The position numbers and the translations under genes are program-made. Of a stretch of 55,048 nt of DNA, positions 16,552 through 21,758 are shown one piece after another. Position 1 is the stretch's first letter, and every line of letters begins with the position of its first letter. Source of the DNA: an uncultured Bacteroidales bacterium (lineage in GTDB: Bacteria; Bacteroidota; Bacteroidia; Bacteroidales; Paludibacteraceae); contig ONMV01000007.1 of assembly GCA_900319005.1 (NCBI GenBank), positions 1 through 55,048 on the forward strand, given 5' to 3'. Below the pieces are notes generated by a model. That model was not told the origin of the DNA and did no database searches. It saw nothing but the letters and a program-made list of their open reading frames with translations.

Positions 16552-17766
16552 ATGGAAGAGATATACCACATACCAGCAATGCTGAAAGAGACGATAGAGG
16601 GTTTGGCAATCAAGCCGAACGGGGTTTATGTGGATGTCACTTTCGGCGGCGGAGGACACAGCCGTGCAATTCTCGGTGAATTGCACGGAATTAAAAATGA
16701 AAAATTAAAAATTAAAAATGAGGTTAACAGCGGCAATTATGCCGCTGAACAGGACAAAGAAGAAGGGAGCCGGATGACATCCGGCGGAATGGACGACGTA
16801 GAAAACGCGGAGCTAAAGCCCCGCGAACAGAACGAAGAGAAGAACACGGCAGAATACAGCCGTGAACAGGACAAAGAAGAGGGCGGGCGGCTGTTCTCGT
16901 TTGATCAGGATATAGAGGCGTATGAGAATGCGATCAAAGGAGCGGGGGAAGATCGCGCATTAATGCACGATGCAAAATGGACGTTTGTGCATAGTAATTT
17001 CCGGTATTTGCGGAACTGGATGGAGTATTACGGGGTGACGGAGATTGATGGATTGTTAGCGGATTTAGGGGTTAGTTTTCATCATTTTGATTGTCCGGAG
17101 AGAGGATTCAGTTTTCGGTTTAGCGCGCCGTTGGATATGCGGATGAACCAGACCGCCAAACGGACGGCGGCAGATATAGTGAACGGGTATAGCGAGGAGG
17201 AGTTGGCGAAGTTGTTTTGGCTATACGGCGAATTGAAGAACGGGAGGGGTATCGCAAGGAATATATGCAAGGCTCGTTCTCAGAAGCCGATTTTACGGAC
17301 GGAGGAGTTGGTAGCGGCAGCAATGAATATGCCACTCGCGAAACTCACGGGCACAGAACAAGGTGCAACGCAAGGAGAAGAAGAGGGAAATCCGCCAAGA
17401 TTGGCGGATGTAAGAGAGTTGGAGATACCGACGCAGTACAAAAAGGATTTGGCACGGCTGTTTCAGGCGTTGCGGATAGAGGTGAACGACGAGATGGGGG
17501 CACTGAGGGAGATGTTAGTGGCAGCAAGAGATCTGCTGAAACCCGGAGGGCGGATAGCGATCTTGACGTATCACTCGCTGGAGGATCGGTTGGTGAAGAA
17601 TTTTCTGCGAAGCGGGAACCTCGAAGGGACGATAGAGAAGGATTTTTACGGAAATAACCTGAGTCCGTTTGAGGTGATAGAGAAAGGTCGTGAGGCGAGT
17701 GAGGAAGAGGTAGAACGTAATCCGAGGGCTCGGAGCGCCAAGTTGAGGGTGGCGGAGAAGAGGTGA
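16552..17766 (+). CDS. rsmH: 16S rRNA (cytosine-N4)-methyltransferase RsmH with three repeat-encoded insertions
   Basis: RsmH methylates C1402 of 16S rRNA using S-adenosylmethionine. The core is intact: FGGGGHS (31-37), the FDQD acidic motif (117-120), HSNFRYL (147-153), DLGVSFHH (171-178) and TYHSLEDRLVKNF (339-351). At 404 aa it is about 100 longer than usual. The excess sits in three places: residues 46-110 between the SAM loop and GGRLFSFDQD; about 130-142 (GAGEDRALMHDAK); and about 268-295 (GTEQGATQGEEEGNPPRLAD). Each is encoded by small DNA repeats that also occur outside the gene. A ribosome-binding sequence AAGGAGAG lies at 16533-16540. Whether the inserts remain in the protein as loops is not known. 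Confidence 0.94.
   Translation: MEEIYHIPAMLKETIEGLAIKPNGVYVDVTFGGGGHSRAILGELHGIKNEKLKIKNEVNSGNYAAEQDKEEGSRMTSGGMDDVENAELKPREQNEEKNTAEYSREQDKEEGGRLFSFDQDIEAYENAIKGAGEDRALMHDAKWTFVHSNFRYLRNWMEYYGVTEIDGLLADLGVSFHHFDCPERGFSFRFSAPLDMRMNQTAKRTAADIVNGYSEEELAKLFWLYGELKNGRGIARNICKARSQKPILRTEELVAAAMNMPLAKLTGTEQGATQGEEEGNPPRLADVRELEIPTQYKKDLARLFQALRIEVNDEMGALREMLVAARDLLKPGGRIAILTYHSLEDRLVKNFLRSGNLEGTIEKDFYGNNLSPFEVIEKGREASEEEVERNPRARSAKLRVAEKR
16687..16727 (+). repeat. In-frame microrepeat (AATTAAAAATT type) inside rsmH
   Basis: GAATTAAAAATGAAAAATT and following AAAAATTAAAAATGAGG units are read as GIKNEKLKIKNE, directly before the hairpin array. This is the same microrepeat as in dapA and between several genes. 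Confidence 0.7.
16728..16883 (+). repeat. 4 x 39-bp hairpin array inside rsmH
   Basis: Four units of 39 bp (13 codons). Units 1, 3 and 4 are an 8-bp inverted repeat with a 4-nt AT loop, then a tail GAACAGRACRAAGARRA. The stems differ between units: CAGCGGCA/TGCCGCTG (16728-16747), CGCGGAGC/GCCCCGCG (16806-16825, one mismatch) and CACGGCAG/CAGCCGTG (16845-16864, one mismatch). Unit 2 has a 7-bp stem GCCGGAT/ATCCGGC (16769-16785) and a diverged tail. The array is in frame and encodes EQDKEE or EQNEEK in units 1, 3 and 4. Confidence 0.85.
16951..16980 (+). repeat. ATGCACGAT hairpin repeat, copy in rsmH
   Basis: GATCGCGCATTAATGCACGA followed by TGCAAAATGG, read in frame as DRALMHDAKW. Stem ATCGCGCA/TGCACGAT (one mismatch), loop TTAA. 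It matches the copies before ftsL and in murE. Confidence 0.78.
17353..17437 (+). repeat. Third repeat-like insert in rsmH with an 8-4-8 hairpin
   Basis: A purine-rich stretch with GAACAAGG and GGAGAAGAAGAGGG, resembling the tail of the 39-bp units, is followed by a perfect hairpin ATCCGCCA-AGAT-TGGCGGAT at 17390-17409. It is in frame and encodes part of residues 268-295, which family members lack. Confidence 0.6.
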
Positions 17767-18268: not shown

Positions 18269-18303
18269 GAACCCCACCCATCCTTCCCACAGGGGGGAGG
18301 GGA

Positions 18304-18409
18304 AGCCGGATAATATCCGGCGGAATGGACGACGTAGAAAACGCGGAGCTAAAGCCCCGCGAACAAAACGAAGAGAAGAACACGGCGGAATACCGCCGTG
18401 AACAGGACA
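18304..18409 (+). repeat. 106-bp copy of the rsmH hairpin array before ftsI
   Basis: Ungapped match to 16768-16873 inside rsmH with 5 mismatches in 106 bp by eye. It carries three of the hairpins; the last one (CACGGCGG-AATA-CCGCCGTG, 18381-18400) is a perfect 8-bp stem here and has a mismatch in rsmH. Confidence 0.88.
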
Positions 18410-18420
18410 TAACAAGATGA
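18325..18420 (+). CDS. Possible 31-codon ORF made of repeat sequence, overlapping the ftsI start
   Basis: ATG at 18325 opens a frame reading MDDVENAELKPREQNEE and on to EQDITR, stopping at TGA 18418-18420, which overlaps the ftsI ATG (ATGA). The same peptide, with one residue different over the shared part, is the insertion in RsmH. The frame is the same in both places. It may be a translated coupling ORF for ftsI or only a passive remnant of the repeat; there is no clear ribosome-binding sequence. Confidence 0.35.
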   Translation: MDDVENAELKPREQNEEKNTAEYRREQDITR

Positions 18421-20219
18421 GTGACGAGCAGAGAAATACGGTATGGCGGTTCGCGATGATATTTATCGTGATCCTGTTAGGATTCGGGGCTGTGCTCGGA
18501 AAAATCATCTATGTGCAGGTGGCAGAACGGGATGAATGGTTGAAAGTAGCGGAAAAACAAGTGCCGACGCACCGTCCGATCAAAGCGACCAGAGGGAATA
18601 TATTAGATTGCAACGGACGATTATTGGCAAGCAGCATGCCGCAATACTATGTATATATGGATACGCGCGTACCCGCGTTGCACGATAAGAACGGAGCACT
18701 TTTCACAGCTCATATCGATTCGTTGGCATTTGATTTAGCACGCATTGTGGGAGACCATTCCGCCGCCGAATACAAAGGACGTATCAGTCATGCCTACATG
18801 CGTGGAGAGAAGCGGTTGAAAGTGTGCGACCATCGGATCAATTATCTTCAGCGGCAGGATCTGGAGAAGAACAGTTTGATCAAGAAGGGCAAGTACAAGA
18901 GCGGAATTTTCTTTGAGGACCAACACAGGCGAATCAAGCCTTACGGTATATTGGCCAGCCGCACAATAGGGAGTATCTACGGCGAAGGCGGAAGCGGTAA
19001 CTCGGGATTGGAGAAAGGGTTCGACAAAGAGTTACGGGGCGAAGACGGGATGAGCAGTATTCAGCGTATCGGCGGGCGGAATGAGTCGGTTCCTGTAGAA
19101 GAAGCGAAAGACGGAATGGACGTAGTGACCACAATTGATGCCAATCTGCAGGATATCGTGGAGAACGCATTGCTGGTGAAGACCCGTGAGCGGAACGCGA
19201 AATGGGGTTGCGCTATACTGATGGAGACGCAGACCGGATATATTCGTGCGATTGCTAATCTGGACCGTTCGGAAGAGGACGGACAGTATTTTGAGGGGCA
19301 GAACCACGCCGTTCAGCGCGTGGAACCGGGTTCGACCTTTAAGACGATTGCCTTGATGGCGGCACTGGATGACGGCAAGATAGACATTGACGACACCGTT
19401 CGTATCACCAAACAGCCGTGGGTCTATATCCGCAATTCCAAACACACCGACGCCCACCCGATGGACACGGTACTGACGGTTCGTTCGGCGCTTGCGGTGT
19501 CCAGTAATATCGCCCTTGCGAAACTGATCACCCACAGTTATGAGGGTTCCGCCCGCAAGTTCGTCAAGAAGATCGAGCGGATGGGGTTGTTAGACAGTTT
19601 ATATTGCGAGATTCCGGGAGCAGACAAGGCGCGCATTGATGTGCCGCGGGACACGGTGACGCTGAGTAAGATGAGTTACGGCTACTCGGTGGAGTTGAGT
19701 CCGATGCAGATTCTGATGTTTTACAACGCGATCGCTAACGGAGGACGAATGATGCGGCCGATGTTAGTGACGGCTATCGAGCAGAACGGCGAGAGTGAAC
19801 GCACTTTCCGTCCGGAAGTGGTGAAATCGTCTATCTGTTCGCGGAGCACGCTTCGGGATATACAAGGGGCGCTGCACGATGTTGTATGGGACGATCATTT
19901 AGGAACGGCCGCCAAGAGATTATGGAGCCGGAAGGCACAATCGAACTTAGTAGCGATTGCCGGCAAGACCGGAACGGCGCAGCTGTTTATGCGAGGTCAC
20001 GGTTATTCGGGCAAACATCACCGGATCACGTTCGTAGGGTATTTTCCGGAGGACAAACCGCAGTACACCTGTATCTGCATGATCGAGGATCCGCAGTATC
20101 CGTATGACGCGGGGATGGATTGCGGCAGTACGGTTAGGGTGATTGCAGAGAAGACGATGGCTTACACGGGGTGCTATGTTTTTCGAGATGGGGTAAGACA
20201 TCTCGAAAAACGTAATTAA
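18417..20219 (+). CDS. ftsI: Division-specific peptidoglycan transpeptidase FtsI (PBP3), short C-terminus
   Basis: FtsI crosslinks septal peptidoglycan in the periplasm together with FtsW. One N-terminal membrane helix (about 10-32) precedes the non-catalytic domain (KATRGNILDCNGRLLASSMP at about 58-77) and the transpeptidase domain, with S306-T-F-K309, S362-S-N364 and K517-T-G-T. At 600 aa it ends about 100 residues earlier than typical Bacteroides FtsI, which carries a C-terminal PASTA domain; none is seen here. The last codons are part of a perfect 13-bp inverted repeat, and the stop codon opens an AATTAAAAATT microrepeat. This suggests that repeats replaced the original 3' end (inference). 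Confidence 0.94.
   Translation: MSDEQRNTVWRFAMIFIVILLGFGAVLGKIIYVQVAERDEWLKVAEKQVPTHRPIKATRGNILDCNGRLLASSMPQYYVYMDTRVPALHDKNGALFTAHIDSLAFDLARIVGDHSAAEYKGRISHAYMRGEKRLKVCDHRINYLQRQDLEKNSLIKKGKYKSGIFFEDQHRRIKPYGILASRTIGSIYGEGGSGNSGLEKGFDKELRGEDGMSSIQRIGGRNESVPVEEAKDGMDVVTTIDANLQDIVENALLVKTRERNAKWGCAILMETQTGYIRAIANLDRSEEDGQYFEGQNHAVQRVEPGSTFKTIALMAALDDGKIDIDDTVRITKQPWVYIRNSKHTDAHPMDTVLTVRSALAVSSNIALAKLITHSYEGSARKFVKKIERMGLLDSLYCEIPGADKARIDVPRDTVTLSKMSYGYSVELSPMQILMFYNAIANGGRMMRPMLVTAIEQNGESERTFRPEVVKSSICSRSTLRDIQGALHDVVWDDHLGTAAKRLWSRKAQSNLVAIAGKTGTAQLFMRGHGYSGKHHRITFVGYFPEDKPQYTCICMIEDPQYPYDAGMDCGSTVRVIAEKTMAYTGCYVFRDGVRHLEKRN
20178..20211 (+). repeat. Perfect 13-bp inverted repeat in the 3' end of ftsI
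   Basis: GTTTTTCGAGATG (20178-20190) pairs with CATCTCGAAAAAC (20199-20211) around an 8-nt loop. It encodes the last residues of FtsI (VFRDGVRHLEKR). It could act as an RNA hairpin that stabilises or ends transcripts, but no T run follows. Confidence 0.8.
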
Positions 20220-20254
20220 AAATTAAAAATTAAGAATTAAGAATTAAAAATTAT
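20215..20254 (+). repeat. Microrepeat (AATTAAAAATT type) between ftsI and murE
   Basis: Four or five copies of AATTAAAAATT/AATTAAGAATT fill the whole gap and provide the ftsI stop codon. Confidence 0.78.
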
Positions 20255-21727
20255 ATGCTTTTATCCGAGTTATTGACAGCGATTGAGCCGATAGAGGTGA
20301 TCGGTTCGACAGAAAAAGAGATCAAGGGTCTGCATTTTGACAGCCGTAAGGTGGGTCAAGGCGATCTGTTCGTTGCACAGGTGGGAACGGCAGTAGATGG
20401 ACACACGTTCATTGAGGGATGTGTGGAAAAGGGGGCGATTGCGGTCGTTCTGAGTGATCGTGCATTCATGCACGATGCGAAGGACGTGACCTATATTTTG
20501 GTTGAGAATACGGATAAGGCGTTGGGATTGTTAGCAAGCAAGTGGTTTGGCGAACCGAGTAAGGCGTTGACGCTTGTGGGCGTGACAGGAACGAACGGCA
20601 AGACGACTATTGCGACCCTGCTGTACAAACTTGTGCGTGCCTTGGGACACAAGGCAGGATTGCTTTCGACCGTGGTCAATTATATCGAGGACGAGGCGGT
20701 TCCTGCAACCCACACGACGCCGGACGCGATTGAGTTGAACGGGTTGTTGAGACGAATGGTGGATGCAGGTTGCGAGTACGCGTTCATGGAGGTTAGTTCG
20801 CACGCGATTGCTCAGGAACGTGTAGCCGGTCTGGATTTTGACGGGGCGCTGTTTACCAACCTGACGAGGGATCATATCGACTACCATAAGACCTTTGACA
20901 ACTACCGCGATACGAAAAAACGGCTGTTTGACGGATTGAAGAAGACAGCTTTCGCGGTGACGAACAAAGATGACAAGAACGGGTTGGTTATGACGCAGAA
21001 CTGCAAGGCGGAGGTGAAGACCTACTCTACCCGTTCGCTGGCGGATTACAAGGCGCAGATTTTAGAGGAAGGATTTGATGGGATGATGCTGAATATCAAC
21101 GGGAAAGAGGTGTTTGTGCCGCTGGTAGGACGATTCAATGTGAGCAATCTGCTCTGTATCTACGGCGCGGCTTTGTGTCTGGGCTTTGAGGAGTTGGATG
21201 TGCTGCGTGTGCTGAGTACGTTGAAGCCCGTAAACGGTCGTTTTGAGACGATCCGCAGCCCGAAAGGGTGGACGGCGATTGTCGATTATGCTCACACGCC
21301 GGACGCTGTTGATAATGTGATAAGTACCATAAGGGAAATCATTGGAAGTGACAAAGTGACAAAGGACAAAGGACAAAGGAAACTCATCACCGTTGTGGGT
21401 TGCGGCGGTAATCGGGACAAGGGCAAACGACCAATGATGGCGCAGATTGCAAAGAAGGGCAGCGAGCAGTTGATCCTGACGAGTGACAATCCGCGTGACG
21501 AGGAACCGGCAGATATTCTGAATGATATGAAAGCCGGGCTGACGGAAGAGGAGTTGCGTAGCACGTTAGTGATCGAAGATCGTGCTGCAGCTATCCAGAC
21601 GGCTTGTACGTTAGCGCAGGCAGGAGACGTGATTTTGGTGGCAGGAAAAGGTCATGAGGACTATCAGATCATCAAGGGGGTGAAGCATCATTTTGATGAC
21701 CACGAACAAGTGCGGAAGTACTTGTAA
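20255..21727 (+). CDS. murE: UDP-MurNAc-tripeptide synthetase MurE (meso-diaminopimelate type)
   Basis: MurE adds the third stem-peptide residue to UDP-MurNAc-L-Ala-D-Glu in the cytoplasm. The ATP-binding loop GVTGTNGKTT is at 109-118 (K116), and the DNPR motif at 411-414 (SDNPRDEEP) marks specificity for meso-diaminopimelate. It is 490 aa, normal for the family. Two short segments coincide with DNA repeats: about residues 68-77 (DRAFMHDAKD), encoded by the ATGCACGAT hairpin repeat also found in rsmH, and residues 365-376 (SDKVTKDKGQRK), a GACAAAG microrepeat between IREIIG and LITVVGCGG. The GACAAAG segment is extra relative to homologues I know. Confidence 0.95.
   Translation: MLLSELLTAIEPIEVIGSTEKEIKGLHFDSRKVGQGDLFVAQVGTAVDGHTFIEGCVEKGAIAVVLSDRAFMHDAKDVTYILVENTDKALGLLASKWFGEPSKALTLVGVTGTNGKTTIATLLYKLVRALGHKAGLLSTVVNYIEDEAVPATHTTPDAIELNGLLRRMVDAGCEYAFMEVSSHAIAQERVAGLDFDGALFTNLTRDHIDYHKTFDNYRDTKKRLFDGLKKTAFAVTNKDDKNGLVMTQNCKAEVKTYSTRSLADYKAQILEEGFDGMMLNINGKEVFVPLVGRFNVSNLLCIYGAALCLGFEELDVLRVLSTLKPVNGRFETIRSPKGWTAIVDYAHTPDAVDNVISTIREIIGSDKVTKDKGQRKLITVVGCGGNRDKGKRPMMAQIAKKGSEQLILTSDNPRDEEPADILNDMKAGLTEEELRSTLVIEDRAAAIQTACTLAQAGDVILVAGKGHEDYQIIKGVKHHFDDHEQVRKYL
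20456..20485 (+). repeat. ATGCACGAT hairpin repeat, copy in murE
   Basis: GATCGTGCATTCATGCACGA followed by TGCGAAGGAC, read in frame as DRAFMHDAKD. Stem ATCGTGCA/TGCACGAT, perfect, loop TTCA. It is translated in the same frame as the rsmH copy. Confidence 0.78.
21347..21382 (+). repeat. In-frame microrepeat (GACAAAG type) inside murE
   Basis: AGTGACAAAGTGACAAAG and GACAAAGGACAAAGG units encode MurE residues 365-376, between two conserved motifs. Confidence 0.68.
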
Positions 21728-21758
21728 ATTAAAAATTAAAAATTAAAAATTACGAATT
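21728..21758 (+). repeat. Microrepeat (AATTAAAAATT type) between murE and mraY
   Basis: Three tandem copies of ATTAAAAATTA followed by ATTACGAATT fill the gap after the murE stop. Confidence 0.75.

Follow-up and report, generated by a model that had tools for sequence, protein, structure and literature searches.

REP-like palindromes associated with RAYT transposases as the probable source of in-frame hairpin units in RsmH loops of rumen Paludibacteraceae

How does a conserved rRNA methyltransferase come to carry a tandem array of hairpin-forming repeats within its reading frame? The question is raised by RsmH in the 55,048-nucleotide window analysed here, contig ONMV01000007.1 of an uncultured Bacteroidales bacterium of the family Paludibacteraceae (assembly GCA_900319005.1). 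The window comprises contig C25 in full, and the genome to which it belongs (2.18 Mb, 85% complete) has a fragmented assembly; contigs of this genome are cited as C and fetched loci as L, each with a number. A preliminary description, made from the letters alone, had noticed four 39-bp units in frame between the SAM loop and the FDQD motif and had compared them in concept to Rickettsia palindromic elements. That a small, structured repeat also enters coding DNA here was upheld. As to its nature, comparison with related genomes suggests that the units are probably palindromes like the repetitive extragenic palindromes (REPs) of a system with REP-associated tyrosine transposases (RAYTs), joined into composite modules that have entered the loops of RsmH. 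Within the genomes searched, this system is for the most part limited to a single genus of rumen Paludibacteraceae.

The four-unit, in-frame array at 16728-16883 is confirmed by the open reading frame (ORF), the match to PF01795, folding and covariance-model matches (Table 1). In general plan, a unit consists of a hairpin (7-8 bp, loop of 3-4 bases) and, after it, a constant tail rich in purines, about RAAYRGRACRAAGA. The first-to-last unit distance is 117 bp, which is 3 x 39, and all four units are in frame. Units 1, 3 and 4 had been described as 8-bp inverted repeats; this holds for unit 1, the sole perfect 8-bp stem, whereas a single mismatch in each of units 3 and 4 leaves 7 of 8 pairs. 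Similarly, the tail said to be constant is shared by units 1 and 4 (AACAGGACAAAG) and, as AACAGAACGAAG, by unit 3, but not by unit 2, in which the reported 7-bp stem is accompanied by a 3-base loop and a tail of another kind (GGAATGGACGACG). The whole array folds with z = -5.0, and none of 200 shuffles was equally stable. Folded singly as DNA, units 1-4 gave z = -6.8, -2.8, -3.6 and -6.7, with 0, 3, 0 and 0 of 200 shuffles equally stable, unit 2 being the weakest single hairpin. The corresponding covariance-model E-values in a whole-genome search are 4.8e-12, 2.4e-7, 8.7e-12 and 2.1e-11, the same units having partly built the model. No match to Rfam was found in the window at gathering score. 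The insert exceeds the array, as a tract of AATTAAA repeats lies ahead of the units. From GGGGHS to FDQD, the protein of the window measures 83 aa, and 79 relatives with a readable segment range from 17 to 83 aa. This loop has about 64 aa extra over short forms, in line with the 65 residues first estimated. A conserved, non-repetitive segment of the same length in homologues, which would have spoken against a repeat insert, was not seen; most of these 79 relatives have short loops or other repeats.

Copies of the units are present well beyond RsmH. A DNA search gave further array copies on C15, C19, C26, C27 and C34. In addition, a covariance model (R1) was made from 32 units of this genome and its relatives; loose detection of tail plus hairpin had returned 148 rows, many of them chance-like, from which 34 were picked and two then dropped as breaking the column alignment. 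At a threshold of E<=1, R1 has 56 matches in this genome; 27 of them pass E<=1e-4, or 24 once the stricter filters used for the genus search are applied, and at E<=0.003 the matches form about 16 clusters besides RsmH. The genus search covered 151 genomes, a selection from a larger group, and 87 of the 151 contain matches at E<=1e-4, so that the covariance-model search proposed in the preliminary description did yield further copies. Among 120 family genomes, eight of which are of the own or same genus, 38 match at E<=0.01; in the other ~112, 34 match at this threshold and only one at E<=1e-4. The family matches outside the genus are thus near background, E-values being rough. When sites in this genome were selected by tail only, a hairpin was found directly before 6 of 7 exact GAACAGRACRAAGA matches (three of the six are RsmH units, leaving 3 of 4 elsewhere) and before 6 of 14 matches with one mismatch, compared with 2.0% of random positions. 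The tail pattern with up to two mismatches was rejected as a unit detector because it is largely background (148 matches, versus 82 for a reversed control).

Sorted by eye, the units belong to four classes: alpha (GCCGGAT-NNN-ATCCGGC and variants), beta (CGGCGGCA-NNNN-TGCCGCCG), gamma (CGCGGNNC-TAAA-GNNCCGCG) and delta (CACGGCGG-AATA-CCGCCGTG). Strict patterns for alpha, beta, gamma and delta match 35, 9, 57 and 6 fetched loci, respectively, overlapping loci being counted. The stems in RsmH differ because different REP-like classes sit side by side, each of which is present at other loci too. For example, the stem of unit 2 also occurs downstream of a RAYT gene on C16, and the class of unit 3 also sits on the stop codon of the RAYT gene on C15. 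The earlier view that stems change while pairing is kept holds for arrays beside RAYT genes but not for RsmH, where units are of different classes and sister stems decay. Compensatory evolution in place, as the main cause of the differing stems in RsmH, was rejected: stems of the window and of L041, compared by eye, show wobble or decay.

Pairing across the wider set is high. In the R1 alignment 91% of cells are paired, versus 60% when shuffled; these counts are not evidence of in-place compensation, because class mix and the choice of units shape them. The first stem pair is C-G in 21 of the 32 model units. The 38 distinct gamma, beta or delta tail matches in fetched loci, many of which were fetched with the model, pair at 81%, where the shuffled maximum is 63%, and the 22 best of these classes have 12 different 5' arms. 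Of 112 distinct alpha-tail matches, 36 form at least 6 of the 7 pairs and comprise 10 different arms; the remainder are chance-like.

The plausible carrier of the units, RAYT transposases, had been missed by the preliminary description, as had the existence of three RsmH loops of this kind. The Y1_Tnp profile identifies two RAYT genes above cut-off in this genome and a RAYT of the genus, used as query, has seven matches. Residues H90, H92, Y154, N158 and P159, which comprise the HUH motif and the single catalytic tyrosine, are invariant in 37 aligned RAYT proteins, 31 of which match Y1_Tnp at E<=1. NCBIfam NF047646 matches three RAYTs with E-values of 8.7e-7, 1.4e-11 and 1.3e-16, all under its 80-bit cut-off. 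The proteins are about 330 aa long and have a common C-terminal part. This part (L158, which is the C15 RAYT, L162, L166 and others) spans ~150 aa, runs GAVLVSPFISPAEK...IVNRGLDGKFIYPSGRDL and is without a convincing Pfam match; it may resemble the DprA/LOG Rossmann fold.

A link between units and RAYT genes was observed. Close RAYT loci have a unit of at least 16 bits in 13 of 16 cases and distant ones in 6 of 34 (p = 3e-13 and 0.002, respectively), against 2 of 111 control stretches. Here, the distant loci are 14 further loci of the genus RAYT search plus 20 picked from its list, and the control stretches, each 3.6 kb long, were taken from 400 kb of genus sequence, mostly on contigs with a RAYT elsewhere. 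At the level of whole genomes, RAYTs occur at E<=1e-10 in 102 of the 151, with 74 genomes having both RAYT and units and 36 having neither (p = 1.6e-7, kinship ignored).

The stop codon of the RAYT gene on C15 is overlapped by a gamma unit, with the TAA within the loop, and hairpin arrays with similar tails flank the RAYTs on C7, C16, C1 and C22. One of the two hairpins on C16 carries an alpha stem; the array on C1 has three different stems with similar tails; and on C22, 7 of 7 tail-selected units are paired by eye, with three stem types. In single flanks (C1, C22), then, the tail is near-constant while stems vary yet still pair. Units are translated in frame inside RAYTs L166 and L169, model matches fall within the ORFs of L166, L167 and L169 between HUH and Y, and L168, L170 and L172 have repeats at the same place by eye. 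A separate feature of the C15 gene (L140) is a direct repeat of ~120 bp on both of its sides, nearly identical by eye, which begins in a unit tail and contains the 5' end of the gene, as if a tandem copy had been lost.

Recurrence in RsmH was assessed with the best 80 of 518 candidate loci, titled Bacteroidales or Paludibacteraceae; one (L073) is cut, and the 79 readable relatives plus the window make an alignment of 80 rows. Length varies in three loops: after RAILxxL (loop 1), after DIEAYEN (loop 2) and before ELDIPAQYK (loop 3). Their placement is based on profile alignment to 3TKA and 1WG8, in which they are family gaps or short loops. Units are carried by 12 of the 80 rows, six in loop 1 and seven in loop 3, one row having them in both; L047 has an alpha unit in loop 2 as well. 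On a tree of the conserved core, loop 1 requires at least five gains or losses, three of which are forced by well-supported branches, and loop 3 likewise at least five, with four forced. In other relatives the loops hold 7-mer tracts or C-rich hairpins instead. Near relatives on the RsmH tree (L048, L052 and L055; L051 and L053; L046 and L047) vary both in the loop that is filled and in the filling.

A composite module is found in the gap downstream, before ftsI (Table 1). It begins with a C-rich hairpin, after which come alpha, then beta or gamma, then delta; this order, complete or partial, is repeated in each of the three RsmH loops and in this gap. The unit pitch is 38-39 bp in gap and gene alike, 13 codons being added per unit, which may be the reason that such modules can be accepted in a gene.

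Table 1. Features of the RsmH array and of the downstream gap; all positions are those of the window
Feature	Position	Strand	Evidence or structure
rsmH (mraW), host gene of the insert	16552..17766	+	ORF, 404 aa; Pfam PF01795, E 4.7e-84
AATTAAA 7-bp tandem tract, opening part of the loop-1 insert	16689..16719	+	similar 7-mers at 20214-20253 and 21726-21752
Unit 1, beta class	16728..16766	+	CAGCGGCA-atta-TGCCGCTG, then AACAGGACAAAG tail
Unit 2, alpha class	16768..16805 (start 16768/16769)	+	GCCGGAT-gac-ATCCGGC, then GGAATGGACGACG tail
Unit 3, gamma class	16806..16844	+	CGCGGAGC-taaa-GCCCCGCG, A/C mismatch at pair 6, then AACAGAACGAAG tail
Unit 4, delta class	16845..16883	+	CACGGCAG-aata-CAGCCGTG, A/A mismatch at pair 7, then AACAGGACAAAG tail
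C-rich/G-rich hairpin, start of the composite module in the gap before ftsI	18272..18300 (end approximate)	+	
Second array, alpha-gamma-delta	18304..18418 (DNA-search match 18301-18417)	+	93% identical to RsmH units 2-4; extends to the ftsI start codon
ftsI-like penicillin-binding protein gene, downstream of the second array	18417..20219	+	PF00905, PF03717

How the units would come to be in RsmH can be outlined as follows. Several RAYT paralogues (HUH-tyrosine transposases, seven here) would each go with hairpin classes of their own that have similar tails. The tail would serve as a cleavage or guide module and the hairpin would be read mainly by its shape, so that stems may drift while pairing. 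RAYTs would move the units, and those of different classes would have been assembled, in the rsmH-ftsI region, into the composite module. This module would have been copied or inserted several times, on the sense strand, into the three RsmH loops, with entry either by transposition or by copying from the neighbouring gap. The pitch of 38-39 bp (13 codons) would keep the frame and the hydrophilic peptide would be tolerated. The recurring module order and the arrangement in the sister L042 fit a resident composite module that was copied from the gap into the adjacent gene; RAYT-driven insertion is possible.

The closest competitor attributes the spread of the units mainly to recombination-type copying (gene conversion or template switching from one hairpin array to another) and regards RAYTs as passengers that share the same repeat-rich places. 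RsmH would then be hit because it is adjacent to the array before ftsI. The local data agree with this: RsmH units 2-4 are 93% identical to the array ~1.5 kb downstream, the composite order and the 38-39 bp pitch are common to both places, and in L042 the series before ftsI is C-rich hairpin, alpha, gamma-like, delta, while that in RsmH is beta-delta-alpha. The units are, however, scattered over many contigs and enriched at RAYT genes, the flanks of which carry stem sets of their own. Copying as the main route is a possibility, albeit one clearly behind the REP/RAYT system in probability.

Several points weigh against the REP/RAYT interpretation. No transposition event was seen in the genomes compared and, by eye in the unit listings, no GTAG/GTGG guide is present at the hairpin foot on either strand. 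The RAYTs on C30 and C34 of this genome are without a model match up to E 1, and no 16-bit match is found at 3 of the 16 close and 28 of the 34 distant RAYT loci. The 16-bit threshold was chosen after the scores had been seen. In addition, some of the 13 positive loci are near-orthologues (identity to the query is at least 96% for L158-L161), so that the p-values overstate independence. Genomes with a RAYT and no units (28 of 151) or with units and no RAYT (13 of 151) also occur, in a test that ignores kinship. The model units were chosen for having hairpins, the alpha tail by itself is mostly chance and the RsmH stems drift between sisters (window versus L041). Weak relatives of the units may exist outside the genus (34 of ~112 genomes at E<=0.01), and copying between the ftsI gap and RsmH could have run either way.

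A further explanation is that the hairpins are kept for a role in RNA, be it transcript stability, a one-way terminator or translation control, their presence in RsmH being a by-product of selection on the mRNA. Strong folding is consistent with this and so is strand: in the 80 rsmH loci, all 46 model matches at E<=0.05, of which a few weak ones probably arose by chance, fall on the transcribed strand. Orientation is mixed across the broader sample of the genus, the next ORF being on the same strand as the unit at 20 of 59 loci and on the opposite strand at 27, with none found at 12 (ORF-based); in this genome it is 8 and 8 of 16. A general strand bias of the units was rejected on these counts. 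Moreover, unit presence flips between close relatives and RsmH stems decay between sisters. Some units lie 3' of genes (L126, L132, L133, L137) and, read on the gene strand, which is backwards for the unit, give a GC hairpin followed by a T run, like an intrinsic terminator; this would suit an RNA role which, judged on sequence, appears unlikely overall.

Could the insert instead be an adaptive, functional extension of RsmH? Inside the RsmH of relatives, 27 of 28 unit matches obey one frame per class, so that frame and acidic reading are retained. Between the window and L041, the core has dN 0.009 and dS 0.248 and is under purifying selection. For the insert dN is 0.032 and dS 0.186, a ratio of about 0.17 that is weakly determined by only 11 differences; it is less constrained than the core. 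Loop length and content also change freely among relatives, including unrelated 7-mer and C-rich repeats, and adaptive extension is very improbable. An assembly or binning artefact can be dismissed almost entirely: the assembly is fragmented and 85% complete, but a closely similar insert is present in assembly L041 (identity of 98% for the protein and of 94% over 168 bp for the array) and related inserts occur in assemblies of other projects, e.g., L042 and L048.

The units share features with several known elements. RPE-1 of Rickettsia is a palindromic repeat inserted in conserved protein genes, as here, and the likeness is one of concept; here, short tandem hairpin units are involved, with one main host gene in the sample, RsmH. 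In IS200/IS605 elements an HUH-Y1 transposase lies beside hairpins, which is also the case here, whereas the present units are dispersed without a transposase.

The comparison with REPs and RAYTs draws on three papers (PMC2817692, PMC3733652, PMC6006769). The units are palindromes of 20-40 bp in many copies, as REPs are, although the 27 or 56 matches in this genome (E<=1e-4 or E<=1) are below the >100 copies per genome given in PMC2817692. Flanking of RAYT genes, also typical of REPs, is seen at the close and distant loci counted above, more often than in the control, and not at C30 or C34. For HUH subclass 2.4 (RAYT group 4), in-frame REP insertions within the RAYT gene itself, in the stretch from HUH to Y, have been described (PMC6006769), and units lie likewise here. 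In contrast to that group, there is a constant purine tail instead of a GT[AG]G guide at the hairpin foot, and stems vary within one array. The subclass 2.4 motifs NH[IFV]H, WQ and YIxNNP (PMC6006769) are not those of the present proteins, which have DHFH and YLxDNP (HNRLRRK type); a second type here (WHWQ) has MPDHxH/MPNHLH and MNPxRLATKR, again unlike NH[IFV]H and YIxNNP.

Intragenic REPs have been reported in several species, with clusters coding 43-82 aa and the tag classes GTAG and CGTC (PMC3733652). CGTC-tagged REPs, which include Rickettsia RPE-4 and RPE-6, have 8-bp stems, 4-base loops and intragenic copies in common with the present units (PMC3733652). The reverse complement of the tail here is CTTCGTCC or CTTTGTCC, holding CGTC or TGTC. 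This motif is ~5 bases from the stem, whereas theirs is at the stem end; the arrays here are direct, theirs head-to-head dimers; and RAYTs are associated here, while PMC3733652 found none for CGTC REPs. The full CGTC pattern, in which a stem of 8-9 bp starts with AT pairs, ends in CGTC and has a CCA tail, is absent from the units. Nor is a REPIN, i.e., two inverted REPs, seen at rsmH loci, where all 46 matches are on one strand; other loci were not systematically covered.

That REPs lie in genes, and inside RAYT genes, is thus already known (PMC3733652, PMC6006769). What is new here is the constant tail, the lack of a GTAG guide, the free stems and the recurrent host gene. In the literature searched, from which subscription journals are largely missing, the top-ranked matches included no family linked to RAYTs that has a constant tail but lacks a GTAG guide, and neither RsmH as a recurrent target nor insertions in RsmH or MraW were found; none of the top-ranked matches on repeats in this family mentioned Paludibacteraceae. 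Tentatively, these features could reflect a RAYT branch that reads hairpin shape and a shared tail, not a GTAG guide and fixed stem. Free stem drift, RAYTs sharing units and mixed, coding-ready modules (13-codon pitch, acidic stop-free reading) that repeatedly colonise three RsmH loops and the transposase would follow from this. As constant tail and variable stem have been separated by nature, what a RAYT reads is directly testable. In addition, 80 related genomes with three loops in empty and filled states provide a natural series for how repeat DNA becomes protein, which bears on why one housekeeping enzyme repeatedly accepts repeat DNA.

The wider occurrence of units in coding DNA was surveyed at 69 loci from the genus-wide matches (29 best-per-genome and 40 hand-picked, some matches near loci already included being omitted). 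The genomes are mostly metagenome assemblies, and ORFs, not gene-caller predictions, served to identify genes. The repeat had been proposed to tolerate or exploit coding regions; units do lie in frame in RsmH and RAYTs, but most sampled copies are outside a real frame, with a unit within a long ORF at 18 of the 69 loci and about 10 of these convincing. The 18 comprise eight in RsmH (some genomes shared with the 80), two in DUF3987 proteins and eight that are chance-like by eye. In the two DUF3987 proteins (L295 1511-1547 and L297 1498-1535), the unit is on the opposite strand and encodes an in-frame, serine-rich stretch. Tandem arrays of about 54-bp and 49-bp pitch are also present (L302 1497-1697, L058 4690-4873), unlike the 39-bp coding arrays. 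Finally, 7-bp tandem repeats (AATTAAA, ATTTACG and others) are abundant in the window, at several places between 1852 and 52655, and one of them opens the RsmH insert.
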